Below are positions 14,191 to 18,682 of a DNA stretch of 64,000 bases, one piece after another. The position numbers and the translations under genes were made by a program. The DNA is from Phaeocystidibacter luteus (GTDB lineage: Bacteria; Bacteroidota; Bacteroidia; Flavobacteriales; Schleiferiaceae): the NCBI RefSeq assembly GCF_008933115.1, contig NZ_WBVO01000001.1, forward strand, positions 1 to 64,000. The letters are read 5' to 3'. The first letter of the stretch is position 1; every line of letters starts with the position of its first letter. Below the pieces are notes generated by a model, which worked only from the letters and a program-made list of their open reading frames with translations, had not been told where the DNA came from and ran no database searches.

Positions 14191-14979
14191 TCAATCTTCC
14201 GTTTTGTACGGAATCGTCTTTAACACGTGCTCGATTGCTTTCAATCGGGCACTTGTTTTTTCATCTGCTTCGATTCGTATCCACGGGGCCAAATCGGTGC
14301 TCGTTTCTTTGAACATTCGTTGCTTGTAGACCGTGTATTTGTCCCATAAATGCTGGGCCTTCTCATCTACAGGTGTCATTTTCCAACGTTTGAGCGGGTT
14401 GCTCTTTATGTCATCGAACCTCCGTGCCTGCTCCTCTTTTGTGATCGAGAAGTAAAACTTGATCAAGTGGGTGTTTGATTCGATTAACATCCGTTCGAAG
14501 TCGTTCACTTGCGACATGAATCTCTCGTACTCCAACTCGGTACAAAAACCGTTCACAGGCTCAACTACTGCCCGGTTGTACCAGCTGCGGTCAAAGAATA
14601 CAATCTCACCCGGTTTGGGAAGGTGATTGATGTACCGCTGGAAGAACCATTGTCGACTTTCGTCCTCTGTCGGTTTATCTAAAGCGATGATGCGATAGTG
14701 ACGAGGGTTGATATGCTTCGTGATCCTGCGAATAGCTCCGCCTTTGCCGGCGGCATCCCTTCCTTCAAAAAGGATAACAACCTTTTCTCCATTTTCAATC
14801 ACCCAGTGTTGAAGCTTGATTAGCTCTTCTTGAAGATGACGAAGAATGAGCTCATAGCGCGCTTCATGGAGTGCTTTCCATACATCCGTATGCTTGGATT
14901 TGAGTAAGAAGTACTTCCCAATTTTGGAGTTGAGGATATCCAGATCCTCTTTGGTAAGTGTTTTTTCGGCTGTGTTCAT
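14191..14979 (-). CDS. Polyphosphate kinase 2 family protein (second of pair)
   Basis: A single-domain PPK2 protein of 262 residues. Walker A is FEGRDAAGKGG (71-81) and the Walker B region is FFDRSWYNRAVVEP (128-141); a lid-like RR...KRWK segment follows. PPK2 enzymes transfer phosphate between polyphosphate and nucleotides; the sub-class (NDP, NMP or both) cannot be decided by eye. Its ATG shares a base with the stop codon of the upstream PPK2 gene (TGATG), so the two are translationally coupled and about equally long. It ends 4 bp from the convergent immunophilin gene. Confidence 0.93.
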   Translation of the reverse strand: MNTAEKTLTKEDLDILNSKIGKYFLLKSKHTDVWKALHEARYELILRHLQEELIKLQHWVIENGEKVVILFEGRDAAGKGGAIRRITKHINPRHYRIIALDKPTEDESRQWFFQRYINHLPKPGEIVFFDRSWYNRAVVEPVNGFCTELEYERFMSQVNDFERMLIESNTHLIKFYFSITKEEQARRFDDIKSNPLKRWKMTPVDEKAQHLWDKYTVYKQRMFKETSTDLAPWIRIEADEKTSARLKAIEHVLKTIPYKTED

Positions 14980-15836
14980 CAGATATCAATTTGAACGGCA
15001 CCTCTGTGGTAACGCACTATTATGTTGGGGTCAGGAAGTAGGTTTATGCCCGATTCACCCTTTCCGTCATATTCGAATTGCGACAATACATAGCGCATGC
15101 TTTCAAGACGAGCTTCGCGTTTGTCGTTCGTTTTTACAATCATCCAAGGGCAGAAGTTGGTGTGTGACTTGCTGAACATCTGTTCTTTGAAGTGTGTGTA
15201 CTTATCCCAAAGCTCCTGTCCTTTCATGTCAACCGGACTAAATTTCCAACGCTTCAGCGGATTCTCAAGTCGGGATTCGAAGCGGCGCTTTTGTTCGTCC
15301 TTCGAAATGGAGAACCAAAACTTTATGATCTTCACATTGTCTTCGTAGAGTAGGTGTTCGAACTCGGAAACCTGTTCGATAAACTTTTGATACAGCTCTT
15401 GGGTGCAAAAGCCCATTACTGGTTCTACAACAGCGCGGTTATACCAGCTTCGATCAAAGAAGACGATTTCCCCAGGGTTTGGTAACTCTTTGATATATCG
15501 TCGAAAATACCATTGCCCGCTTTCTACTTCTGTAGGCTTAGACAAGGCTACTACTCTCGATGTTCTGGGGTTCAAATGCTCTTTGAATCGTTTGATGGAA
15601 CCTCCTTTTCCGGCGGCATCTCGACCTTCAAAAATCACGGCAACGCGCATTTTGTTTTGGGCCACCCACTTTTGAAGGTTAACCAGTTCGGTTTGCAGCA
15701 GATTCAGTTCTTTCTCGTATCGAATATTCCGAACGGCTTTTGATATATCGATATCGTTTTCTTCAGCAATGCTCATTAACTCCTTTCGCGAAGAAGCATT
15801 GAGCAGCTGTTCGGCGGTGAATTTTGCCATTTTCAA
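14979..15836 (-). CDS. Polyphosphate kinase 2 family protein (first of pair)
   Basis: A PPK2 protein of 285 residues with Walker A GRDAAGKGG (71-79) and the same FFDRSWYNRAVVEP Walker B motif as its neighbour. It carries an extra N-terminal helical stretch of about 25 residues (FTAEQLLNASSRKELMSIAE) and a C-terminal tail ending in NIIVRYHRGAVQIDI. The start may be the Met at 15836 or at 15830. The two copies differ throughout, so this is an old duplication. They may differ in nucleotide preference or form a hetero-oligomer; that is inference. The REP array begins 112 bp upstream. Confidence 0.93.
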   Translation of the reverse strand: MKMAKFTAEQLLNASSRKELMSIAEENDIDISKAVRNIRYEKELNLLQTELVNLQKWVAQNKMRVAVIFEGRDAAGKGGSIKRFKEHLNPRTSRVVALSKPTEVESGQWYFRRYIKELPNPGEIVFFDRSWYNRAVVEPVMGFCTQELYQKFIEQVSEFEHLLYEDNVKIIKFWFSISKDEQKRRFESRLENPLKRWKFSPVDMKGQELWDKYTHFKEQMFSKSHTNFCPWMIVKTNDKREARLESMRYVLSQFEYDGKGESGINLLPDPNIIVRYHRGAVQIDI

Positions 15837-15947
15837 ATAGAATCGATGGTTGATGATTCGCGTGTATACAAGGATAAGGAATTGAGGGGAGGTGGGGGAT
15901 GATATTCGTCATGTGGGAGATGGGGGTGGGAGGCGACAAACTTGATA

Positions 15948-16637
15948 GCGGCATGGGCTAAAGCCACAAGCGTGTCATCGAGGAAGGGTCCAAGGTCACG
16001 GGCTTTAGCCCTGACCGCTATTGATTTAGGATTTTGTTGCAGGTTGGTTTGAGCGGCATGGGCTAAAGCCACATGCCTGAAATCGGGGATTTGGTCGGTG
16101 GTAGTTATTTATGATTTCTTGTGTGTTTCGGATGAAGGTGATGGAATGCCCTATACTTTGACTAGGCAACCTGAACGATCACATGAAGGGTAGATCTAAG
16201 GTCACGGGCTTTAGCCCTGACCGCTATTGATTTAGGTTTTTGTTGGAGGTTGGTTTGAGCGGCATGGGCTAAAGCCACATGCCTGGAATCGGGGATTTGG
16301 TCGGTGGTAGTTATTTATGATTTCTTGTGTATTTCTGGTGAAGGTGATTGAATGCCCTATACTTTGACTAGGCAACCTGATCGATCACATGAAGGGTGGG
16401 ATCCAAGGTCACGGGCTTTAGCCCTGACCGCTTGTGATTTAGGATTTTGTTGCAGGTTGGTTTGAGCGGCATGGGCTAAAGCCACATGCCTGGAATCGGG
16501 GATTTGGTCGGTGGTAGTTGTTTATGATTTCTGGTGTGTTTCGGAAGAAGGTGATGGAATGATCTAGGCTTTGACTAGGCGACCTGATCAATCACATGAA
16601 GGGGGGATCTAAGGTCACGGGCTTTAGCCCTGACCGC
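15948..16637. repeat. Left REP array: four inverted hairpin pairs
   Basis: Two hairpin types alternate. Type A (starts 15948, 16053, 16259, 16466) has arms GGCATG/CATGCC, inner GGC/GCC and loop TAAA. Type B (starts 15994, 16200, 16407, 16613) has arms GGTCA/TGACC, an unpaired C, inner GGGC/GCCC and loop TTTA. Type A is the reverse-complement plan of type B, so each A-B pair is a BIME-like inverted pair. The first pair is short (71 bp, with a weakened outer stem in A); the other three are 172-173 bp. Pairs are always 34 bp apart, giving a period of about 207 bp. The long spacers are themselves conserved. Confidence 0.93.
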
Positions 16638-16723
16638 CCCGTTATTAATTATGGCCGTTCAGGCTAAATTAAAATACGCATGTTATTTGGCTGTGAGATT
16701 CGGCACTTTGAATTTCCACATGG

Positions 16724-16731
16724 TAGTTTTG
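16724..16731 (+). promoter_or_regulatory. Putative -7 box for the REP-associated transposase
   Basis: TAGTTTTG is a full TAnnTTTG match 19 bp before the transposase ATG. The nearest TTG (16708-16710) is only 13 nt upstream, short of the usual 17-23, so the assignment is weak. Confidence 0.35.
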
Positions 16732-16750
16732 CCTTTACCAAACCTTTCAT

Positions 16751-17158
16751 ATGTCCAGAAACTCCAAATCAGAAATGGTGTACCACATTGTGTGGAGCAC
16801 CAAGAACCGTTTACCGTTCATTGATCAGAACAACTTCAAGATAATTGAAGATTCAGTTTTTCAGATAGCAATCGAGAATCATTGCTATCTCTATGCATGT
16901 GACGGATGGAATGAGCACGTGCATGTGGTTATCAGGGTATTGCCTGAAATACAACCTTCCTCTTTAATCGGTCAGCTTAAAGGGAAATCTGCGTTCCTTG
17001 TCAATAAAATTCTTGAACCCATACCGAAGTTTAAATGGCAGAATGGATACTACATTCGCACGGTTGGCTATGGCGAACTGAAATCGGTCATACGATATGT
17101 GAAAAATCAACGGAATCATCATGGGAATGGTGATACCGGTGAGAGCGGCATGGGCTAA
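16751..17158 (+). CDS. REP-associated tyrosine transposase (IS200-like Y1/HUH)
   Basis: A protein of 135 residues of the Y1_Tnp family. The metal-binding HUH motif is HVH at 56-58 in NEHVHVVIRV, and the nucleophile is probably Y116 in VIRYVKNQRNHH; both are intact, so the enzyme may be active. RAYT-type enzymes bind and cleave single-stranded REP hairpins. Only one copy exists in this window, in a 507-bp island between two REP blocks, which fits a domesticated RAYT rather than a mobile IS. The stop codon TAA (17156-17158) and the last four residues (SGMG) are encoded inside the type A hairpin that begins at 17145. The ATG at 16751 is the only plausible start. Confidence 0.92.
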   Translation: MSRNSKSEMVYHIVWSTKNRLPFIDQNNFKIIEDSVFQIAIENHCYLYACDGWNEHVHVVIRVLPEIQPSSLIGQLKGKSAFLVNKILEPIPKFKWQNGYYIRTVGYGELKSVIRYVKNQRNHHGNGDTGESGMG

Positions 17159-17940
17159 AGCCACAAGCGTGTTATCGAGGAAGGATCCAAGGTCACGGGC
17201 TTTAGCCCTGACCGCTTGTGATTTAGGATTTTGTTGCAGGTTGGCTTGAGCGGCATGGGCTAAAGCCACATGCCTGGAATCGGGTATTTGGTTGGTGGTA
17301 TTTGTTTATAATTTCTTGTGTGTTTCGGATGAAGGTGATGGAATGCCCTATACTTTGACTAGGAAACCTGATTGATTACATGAAGGGTAGATCCAAGGTC
17401 ACAGGCTTTAGCCCTGACCGCTATTGATTTAGGTTTTTGTTGGAGGTTGGTTTGAGCGGCATGGGCTAAAGCCACATGCCTGGAATCGGTAATTTGGTTG
17501 GTTATAGTTATTAATGATTTCTTGTGTATTTCTGGTGAAGGTGATTGAACGCCCTATACATTGACTAGGCAACCTGATCGATCACATGAAGGGTGGGATC
17601 CAAGGTCACGGGCTTTAGCCCTGACCGCTATTGATTTAGGTTTTTGTTGGAGGTTGGTTTGAGCGGCATGGGCTAAAGCCACATGCCTGTTATCGGAGAT
17701 TTGGTCGGTGGTAGTTGTTTATAATTTCTTGTGTGTTTCGGATGAAGGTGATTGAATGCCCTATACTTTGACTAGGCAACCTGATCGATCACATGAAGGG
17801 TGGGATCCAAGGTCACGGGCTTTAGCCCTGACCGCTATTGATTTAGGTTTTTGTTGCAGGTTTGTTTGAGCGGCGTGGGCTAAAGCCACAAGCGTGTCAT
17901 CGAGGAAGGATCCTAGCTCACAGGCCTCATCCCTGACCGC
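17145..17940. repeat. Right REP array: five inverted hairpin pairs
   Basis: Same elements as the left array. Type A starts: 17145, 17250, 17456, 17663, 17870. Type B starts: 17191, 17397, 17604, 17811 and a degenerate one near 17915. Order is short, long, long, long, short; pairs are again 34 bp apart. The first four pairs lie 1197-1198 bp from the corresponding left pairs, and the first three share pair-specific variants with them (for example GATGGAATG in both second pairs and CTGGTGAAGGTGATTGAA in both third pairs). That means block duplication. The first hairpin overlaps the transposase 3' end. No other gene lies here up to 17971. Confidence 0.93.
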
Positions 17941-17971
17941 TACAAACAACAATTATCCATGAAGCCCCCTC

Positions 17972-18682
17972 TCAAAACGGCACCACCAACAACCTCTGAA
18001 CCAATTCATCCTCACGGAAAACCCATGTTAGGTCATAACCCCCAGCGCCATCGCTGCACGGTTTTGTGAAGATGTAGTAGGGTGGGTAGTAGGCAGTGGA
18101 GTATTCGTCGTGATGAGTCTCGTAAATATCTGAAGATAAGTGCGTTGGGATGAGAGAGCGGTTTCCAAAGTACACGAGGGTGATTGAATCCACTTGAGAG
18201 CGTGGCAAAGTTCCGTCGGTGCCCCAATGTGGCTCATCCAAATAGGAATAATCCGTCCAGTTTTTCATGATGGATACAATCGCGTGTCCTGAAGAATCAA
18301 AATCGGAAGTGTATTCGAGTAAATTGACCTGATCTGGTGTCATTAAATCATCAATGTACCATAGGTCCTCCTTGGAGATATAGCCTTTGTAAGTTGTGGT
18401 TTTGACAGAAGTGTCAACTCTAGCTCGAGAGAGGGTGTCATTGTCGTACTCCACGATATGCCAATCCTCATACTCCTCTGCATCCCAATCGTAGATGTAG
18501 ATGGCAAAGCCCACTTCCAGCTTGTCCAACACCTCTGAGTCTTCATTAGGTGCTGCACGAAGGGCTGTCGGATTTACGATAATCGCAACCTGGCCCTTTC
18601 CGTTAATCGATAACATGGAGAACGCAATTAACATCATCCATGTGGCGAATCCGGCCTCAAACCTGTAGCCTGACTTTCTCAC
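17972..18682 (-). CDS. Secreted SH3-domain-like hypothetical protein
   Basis: A protein of 236 residues. The start is GTG at 18682, overlapping the uvrB stop by 4 bp (GTGA); a later ATG at residue 16 would leave a shorter signal peptide. After the hydrophobic segment ending near INGKGQ, residues about 33-110 match a bacterial SH3 domain (ALRAAPNEDSEVLDKLEVG). The C-terminal half is not recognised. The protein is probably periplasmic. It is last in the DUF349-uvrB operon, and its 3' end adjoins the REP array. No functional link to UvrB is evident. Confidence 0.75.
   Translation of the reverse strand: MRKSGYRFEAGFATWMMLIAFSMLSINGKGQVAIIVNPTALRAAPNEDSEVLDKLEVGFAIYIYDWDAEEYEDWHIVEYDNDTLSRARVDTSVKTTTYKGYISKEDLWYIDDLMTPDQVNLLEYTSDFDSSGHAIVSIMKNWTDYSYLDEPHWGTDGTLPRSQVDSITLVYFGNRSLIPTHLSSDIYETHHDEYSTAYYPPYYIFTKPCSDGAGGYDLTWVFREDELVQRLLVVPF

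Follow-up and report, generated by a model that had tools for sequence, protein, structure and literature searches.

A single-copy IS200-like HUH endonuclease gene within tandem arrays of inverted hairpin pairs in Phaeocystidibacter luteus: a probable REPtron-like locus

Introduction

In the parts of the literature drawn on here, RAYT proteins are marked by an NP(L/V)(R/K)xG motif beside the Tyr and by a conserved threonine near the N-terminus, and in E. coli BIMEs lie on both sides of the rayt gene, with rayt 3′ ends captured in BIMEs (PMC2817692). Because flanking BIMEs are known there, a two-sided array layout is not in itself new. Another group of Y1 enzymes, TnpA-Y1 subclass 1.2, was characterised in 2018 as resembling IS200 but lacking both IS properties and REPs, and is entered as ‘REP: no’ in the table of Quentin et al. 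2018, in the sections consulted (PMC6006769). In Bacteroidetes, CGTC palindromes were found without a dedicated transposase, according to the part of the source that treats them (PMC3733652), and a Chryseobacterium gene has been named ‘RayT’, in passages that make no mention of hairpins (PMC11194056). Our literature search, which covered few subscription papers and preprints, found no report of a subclass 1.2 enzyme with cognate hairpins or REPs. Here we describe a locus of Phaeocystidibacter luteus at which such an enzyme and such hairpins probably occur together.

Results

Layout of the nine-pair array

The window, a stretch of 64,000 nucleotides (contig NZ_WBVO01000001.1, positions 1 to 64,000), contains nine inverted A–B hairpin pairs, three short (S, 71 bp) and six long (L, 172–173 bp), arranged as two tandem blocks on either side of a single open HUH/Y1 gene, tnpA, in the order S-L-L-L, tnpA, S-L-L-L-S. 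The initial annotation had described the same pairs, and their coordinates were confirmed. The array lies between a ppk2-like gene (14979–15836) and a small ORF adjoining uvrB. Its left block comprises pair 1 (S1, 15948–16018), with an A hairpin whose lower stem is weakened and a B hairpin, pair 2 (L1, 16053–16224), pair 3 (L2, 16259–16431) and pair 4 (L3, 16466–16637), the final pair 5′ of tnpA. The gene itself (16751–17158, + strand) encodes a protein of 135 aa and occupies the space between pairs 4 and 5, its final 14 bases lying inside pair 5 (S2, 17145–17215), which thus overlaps the tnpA 3′ end. The right block continues with pair 6 (R1, 17250–17421), pair 7 (R2, 17456–17628), pair 8 (R3, 17663–17835) and pair 9 (S3, 17870–17940), in which the B arm is degenerate; none of the nine pairs is assigned a strand. 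Two ppk2-like genes stand side by side at 14191–15836. T9SS sorting domains score above the cut-off in two proteins of the window, and T9SS is a hallmark of Bacteroidota.

Adjacent pairs are joined by linkers of 33–34 bp, the exact value varying with the placement of the hairpin foot, which accommodates the 34-bp spacing given at the outset, and the linkers form part of a 206–207-bp tandem unit. Each repeat holds two inverted hairpins and is tandemly iterated, as in a REPIN or BIME module. The six long pairs are mutually 87–95% identical (8–23 differences in 173–174 positions), and the sole match of the 206-bp unit beyond the array, at E 0.001 against the whole genome, is one 28-bp A hairpin. 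Because of this identity and the otherwise unmatched unit, a chance origin of the array is excluded.

A hairpins on the + strand and B hairpins on the − strand both begin AGC-GG in 17 of 18 cases, one B reading GGC-GG, and the apex GGC-TAAA-GCC is present in every hairpin apart from the degenerate last B (17912–17940). Computed folding as ssDNA gave −8.0 kcal/mol for the long-pair A and −7.4 kcal/mol for the long-pair B, with a one-nucleotide bulge on the 3′ side, and these values were matched by 3 of 200 shuffles in each case. The short-pair A, which has lost its lower stem, and the last B reached −3.1 kcal/mol each, with 123/200 and 53/200 shuffles as good, so that neither folds better than shuffled sequence. 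The four bases ahead of the foot C are ATAG, TGAG, AGAG, CAAG or GGGG; GTAG occurs solely at the degenerate last B (1/18), and the array does not carry the RAYT-type GT(A/G)G head at its hairpin feet. The long-pair A and B hairpins are nearly invariant, and the spacers are variable. An Rfam search of 15800–18100 returned a single match of 21.5 bits, far under the gathering score of 80 bits.

Each short pair corresponds to a long pair from which about 101–102 bp of spacer are missing, in line with the loss of about 100 bp first proposed, and carries in addition substitutions common to the three S and absent from every L. Because one deletion and these private substitutions are common to all three, the short pairs are one inherited deletion lineage and not three fresh products. 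The earlier suggestion that they are processing products was discarded on the same grounds, S1 and S2 differing at 2 of 72 positions. At diagnostic positions L1 is like R1 and L2 like R2, and this likeness, together with the near-identity of S1 and S2, makes pairs 1–4 and 5–8 look like copies of one S-L-L-L block. Support for such a block duplication is modest: the differing sites number 12 for L1–R1, 8 for L1–L2 and 9 for L1–R3.

The TnpA enzyme

The translated ORF scores 80.8 bits against Pfam Y1_Tnp and 78.5 bits against the NCBIfam IS200/IS605 transposase family (cut-off 55). The HVH motif and Tyr 116 noted in the initial annotation were confirmed (H56-V57-H58, Tyr116), and H56, H58, W96, Q97, Y116, Q120 and H124 are invariant in a 62-protein alignment. 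The Tyr motif, YVKNQRNHH (Y116 VKN Q120 RN HH124), contains the Y---Q--HH signature of subclass 1.2, and the WQ of that subclass is present at 96–97; the HUH motif is EHVH versus DH[IV]H in subclass 1.2. An HUH/Y1 domain with a catalytic Tyr and a gene delimited by inverted REPs are both features of RAYTs, and both are found here; the RAYT NP motif does not follow the Tyr, and Q120 is invariant in the alignment. Judged by motif, the enzyme is a subclass 1.2-like member of the IS200-like class and no canonical RAYT.

The stop codon of tnpA (TAA, 17156–17158) is the TAA in the loop of the next A hairpin, and for this reason the protein lacks a C-terminal tail: the subclass 1.2-specific C-terminal domain of about 30 aa is missing, and most of the relatives aligned have a longer tail. 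The stop of another tnpA of this genome, on contig C11 (L002 1429–1431), likewise falls in the TAAA loop of an adjoining, apparently degenerate hairpin.

An AlphaFold2 model of the protein had a pLDDT of 89.6. In a structure comparison that re-ranked Foldseek’s best chains, the model gave Z 15.8 against IS608 TnpA (107 residues aligned, rmsd 1.9) and Z 11.6 against E. coli TnpAREP (116 residues aligned, rmsd 2.9). A sequence search of solved structures had IS200-type transposases among its matches and, at E up to 1, returned no TnpAREP chain.

Paralogues and dispersed hairpins in the host genome

The window genome (27 contigs, 3.2 Mb) carries three Y1 genes that are mutually 27–40% identical, a low copy number as in subclass 1.2, and near-identical tnpA copies of the kind expected for IS200/IS605 elements were absent from it. 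WQ and the Tyr signature of subclass 1.2 are present in all three, in the C11 copy as Y---Q--KH, with KH for HH. Each gene has, on either side, repeats of hairpins that are its own and differ from those of the other two (3/3).

The 206–207-bp unit of the window is confined to the array in this genome, and a search of 87 other genomes of the host family did not find the 206-bp unit. One lone A hairpin lies elsewhere, at C24:129520; this copy (L058 1350–1600, C24:129376–129547) is about 125 bp from a C11-family hairpin. The gene is single-copy, and the unit has no further copies beyond that one A hairpin. An abundant cognate REP, as known for RAYTs, is accordingly not seen for the window hairpin and is seen for the hairpin of the C11 paralogue: its pattern gave 79 matches with at most two mismatches, 56 of them exact, against 0 for the reversed-pattern control, and 47 of the 56 exact sites lie outside the C11 tnpA array. 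The proposal that such hairpins are packed into arrays and not scattered therefore holds for the window family and fails for the C11 family.

Several of the two-mismatch C11-pattern sites belong to GGGCTAAAGCC families; the core GGGCTAAAGCC occurs at 64 sites in the genome, 17 of them in the array, against 3 for the control. The outer stems of GCTAAAGC hairpins vary between families yet remain paired. They pair at 5.6 of 7 positions versus 4.1 with shuffled partners, a value reached by 0 of 500 shuffles, in a comparison of 105 distinct but related sites from own-genome stretches in which the best of four bulge choices was taken for real and shuffled partners alike.

Four further arrays (C11:9987–10679, C25:138602–139241, C1:204646–205030 and C23:196691–197021) have spacings of about 183, 213, 192 and 160 bp, and none adjoins any of the three Y1 genes. 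Hairpin sites also lie near contig ends (C1:112, C2:121, C7:57, C21:181, C26:109 and C23:197021), and because of this the assembly probably breaks at hairpin repeats and copy numbers may be lower bounds.

Hairpins flanking related genes

Relatives were found with an alignment of ten subclass 1.2 proteins, and 165 of the 392 genomes sampled from the phylum matched at E 1e-30 or better. The flank set started from 101 loci, 99 of which had a gene; Y...Q..xH was present in 97 of these 99. Seven loci had flanks too short to keep, among them one (L074) with visible hairpins on both sides, and the rest yielded 80 distinct proteins, including the three of the window genome and one from a Nitrospinota contig (L080).

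At least five 12-mers were common to the left and right 1200-bp flanks at 46 of these 80 loci, which are best-scoring matches, many of them related, and not a random draw, versus 2 of 60 control windows; 34 loci had fewer than five. A hairpin common to both flanks was found at 28/80 loci, versus 0/60 control windows and 7/400 swapped-flank pairs. The swapped-flank control is the fairer of the two, because the 60 control windows come from 20 regions at round coordinates, within which they overlap, and contain more coding DNA than the tnpA flanks. With the window genome excluded, the counts were 43/77 for 12-mers and 25/77 for hairpins. By the strict test, 52 of the 80 loci had no common two-sided hairpin, so the flanking hairpins looked for in other genomes accompany part of the enzyme’s relatives. 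Hairpin repeats here and at the 28 loci run against the absence of an associated REP entered for subclass 1.2 in 2018.

Four or more repeated hairpins were present at 16 of the 50 best-ranked loci. One genome (G459) has another hairpin family with 19 sites spread over 7 contigs; 15 of these sites lie away from its tnpA, mostly in close groups of at least two. Counts in three others were 5 sites with 4 beside tnpA (G005), 8 sites with 5 beside the gene (G383) and 5 sites (G397). Upstream of one subclass 1.2 gene (L103), a CATCAGGCTAGCGCCTGATG-type hairpin is repeated five times at an exact 66-bp spacing.

In a survey of the 11-base GGGCTAAAGCC, tnpA was present in 22 of 27 enriched genomes versus 143 of 365 others (Fisher p = 2e-5), and in 21 of 26 enriched genomes without the window genome (p = 4e-5), host relatedness being uncontrolled. 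‘Enriched’ meant a count of 10 or more that also exceeded the control more than threefold, judged by eye with a cut set after the counts were seen; two genomes that carry the gene and reach 10 or more copies (G110 and G141) were excluded by the ratio rule.

An empty-site comparison of six relatives identified no empty site: the ppk2 pair was present in two (G001 and G010), with no tnpA and no adjoining uvrB or small ORF within the 6.5-kb stretches.

Hairpin type and enzyme identity

Hairpin sharing was assessed among 66 loci with hairpins within 600 bp. Between different host families, pairs of loci sharing hairpins numbered 27/1215 where the enzymes were <40% identical, 8/340 at 40–50%, 30/243 at 50–60% and 22/118 at ≥60%. 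Of the 87 sharing pairs, 52 had enzymes at least 50% identical versus 17 expected, a figure reached in 0 of 2000 label permutations. Within a genus, hairpins were shared by 26/26 pairs at enzyme identity ≥60% and by 0/67 below; between genera of the same family the count was 11/124, and same-genome paralogue pairs shared none (0/12). One enzyme clade (bootstrap 100, SH-aLRT 98) drawn from three host families has GGCTAAAGCC on both flanks at 6/6 loci, and among the other 74 loci the ten-base GGCTAAAGCC core occurs within 600 bp in the window alone. Mapped onto the enzyme tree, the ‘shared’ label required 24 changes versus a shuffled mean of 25.9, a scatter about equal to that of shuffled labels; long branches lead to the window and C11 enzymes in this tree, hence their place is unsure.

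Because sharing follows enzyme identity and paralogues share none, the hairpins go with the enzyme locus and not with the host, and in these sequence comparisons hairpin type is tied more closely to the enzyme than to the host. Such tracking can reflect co-evolution or plain joint inheritance of the enzyme with its flanks.

Discussion

We consider it probable that the locus is REPtron-like, a single-copy IS200-like HUH endonuclease of TnpA-Y1 subclass 1.2 residing inside tandem arrays of its own cognate hairpin pairs. This reading builds on the anatomy of the array, the folding potential of its hairpins, the paired changes between hairpin families, the predicted fold of the enzyme, the flank association seen among some of the relatives and the tracking of the enzyme by hairpin type. 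By analogy with IS608 and the TnpAREP families, A and B would fold into imperfect hairpins, with their GGC-TAAA-GCC apex and one-nucleotide bulge, when the DNA is single-stranded, for example on the lagging-strand template. A dimer of the enzyme would bind these hairpins, Tyr116 would cut beside the foot and the cut ends would be rejoined. Repeated cutting and joining of adjacent pairs, or unequal recombination, could make the array longer or shorter, and an occasional freed pair might be mobilised and seed dispersed copies.

An ordinary insertion sequence of the IS200/IS605 type, the subterminal hairpins of which were multiplied by chance tandem duplication, would suit the family score of the enzyme and a fold nearest to IS608 TnpA. 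We regard this explanation as improbable: the genome holds one copy of the gene, its other two Y1 genes are distant in sequence and carry other hairpins, and hairpins are present without the gene. Elsewhere, 25 within-genome pairs from 15 genomes sampled at two or three loci each are 27–58% identical; near-identical copies may still occur in the genomes with most matches (up to 10). It is equally hard to credit that an intergenic terminator or mRNA-stabilising hairpin was simply duplicated in tandem, with the enzyme as an unrelated passenger. REP-like hairpins elsewhere do affect transcription and mRNA stability, the hairpins here are intergenic and the window unit is nearly confined to one place; however, an identical layout recurs at all three Y1 genes of the genome, common hairpins exceed the swapped-flank expectation among the relatives, and across host families the kind of hairpin tracks the identity of the enzyme.

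A REPtron in decay, its array and enzyme being inactive remnants, is compatible with the REPtron-like identity and differs from it on present activity. The enzyme ends inside a REP, the short pairs and the last B arm are degenerate, the long pairs differ by 5–13% and one dispersed copy was found, but the catalytic residues are intact, the frame is open and the long-pair A and B hairpins have stayed nearly invariant while the spacers vary; we hold complete inactivity to be possible, though unlikely. Present activity of the window locus is itself doubtful, given the missing tail, the degenerate outer pairs and the one dispersed hairpin. On the reading we favour, REPtron-like systems of the IS200 branch are common among subclass 1.2 enzymes, and the window holds a locally amplified, possibly decaying example. 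The initial annotation had proposed a Bacteroidota version of the RAYT/REP system; the REP-like inverted pairs, the single-copy Y1 gene and a genome with T9SS domains agree with this, and the RAYT identity does not stand, the enzyme lacking the NP motif and fitting subclass 1.2.

We lean towards a broader view in which IS200-like transposases gave rise to REP systems on at least two occasions. Alongside the RAYTs, subclass 1.2 of Bacteroidota would constitute a widespread REPtron lineage of its own, whose hairpins are lineage-specific, often bulged and, in some clades, tipped by the GGC-TAAA-GCC apex. These hairpins would move and evolve together with the enzyme and, as in the window, could expand into tandem arrays around it. 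The role of subclass 1.2 has been open since 2018, because it was described as IS200-like yet without IS properties or REPs, and cognate hairpins, if true, close this gap. Part of the intergenic palindromes in the matching genomes of the phylum (165 of 392 sampled) would then gain a named enzyme, and a second case of transposase domestication would be available for comparison with the RAYTs. Array loci like the present one make the match of enzyme and hairpin directly testable in vitro.

Among known systems, IS608 and ISDra2 (IS200/IS605) resemble the window enzyme in fold, in HUH and Tyr, and in hairpin substrates; unlike the window locus, they are mobile as a unit with two ends and are not known to form arrays. 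Features described for REPtrons also recur here (PMC2817692, PMC8266576): a Y1 gene between inverted imperfect hairpins in tandem modules, with BIME-2 on both sides in E. coli; a gene 3′ end captured in a module; enzyme and hairpins that track each other; and several enzymes in one genome, each paired with hairpins of its own. Unlike in REPtrons, the window enzyme is IS200-like (Y---Q--HH, no NP motif), the heads are not GT(A/G)G (1/18) and the family is hardly dispersed. The REPIN clusters of P. fluorescens SBW25 are likewise tandem, with a different cluster beside each RAYT, but in the passages considered their enzymes are RAYTs and the largest ordered cluster has four REPINs and one REP, versus nine pairs in two blocks here (PMC3116915).

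With subclass 1.2, as characterised in the sections consulted, the locus shares Y---Q--HH, WQ, low copy number and occurrence in Bacteroidota, and it differs in the flanking hairpin repeats, seen at a good part of the loci, and, in the window, in EHVH for DH[IV]H and the absent C-terminal tail (PMC6006769). The Y1 genes of TnpA-Y1 class 3 and subclass 2.6 in the same source likewise have atypical, non-GTAG hairpins at their flanks, further copies of which lie at other genomic sites, but the enzyme motifs differ (Y----Q with a longer core in class 3, Y---NP in subclass 2.6; PMC6006769). TIRtrons, going by their description, are similar in that Y1 genes are bordered by inverted repeats of other kinds, some of which are self-complementary and some of which belong to repeated families, and dissimilar in that TIRYTs are RAYT-like proteins (PMC3733652). 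Flanking BIMEs, captured 3′ ends, tandem REPINs and atypical hairpins are all known, and what appears new, within the literature searched, is a set of probable cognate hairpins for subclass 1.2, which was listed without REPs in 2018.
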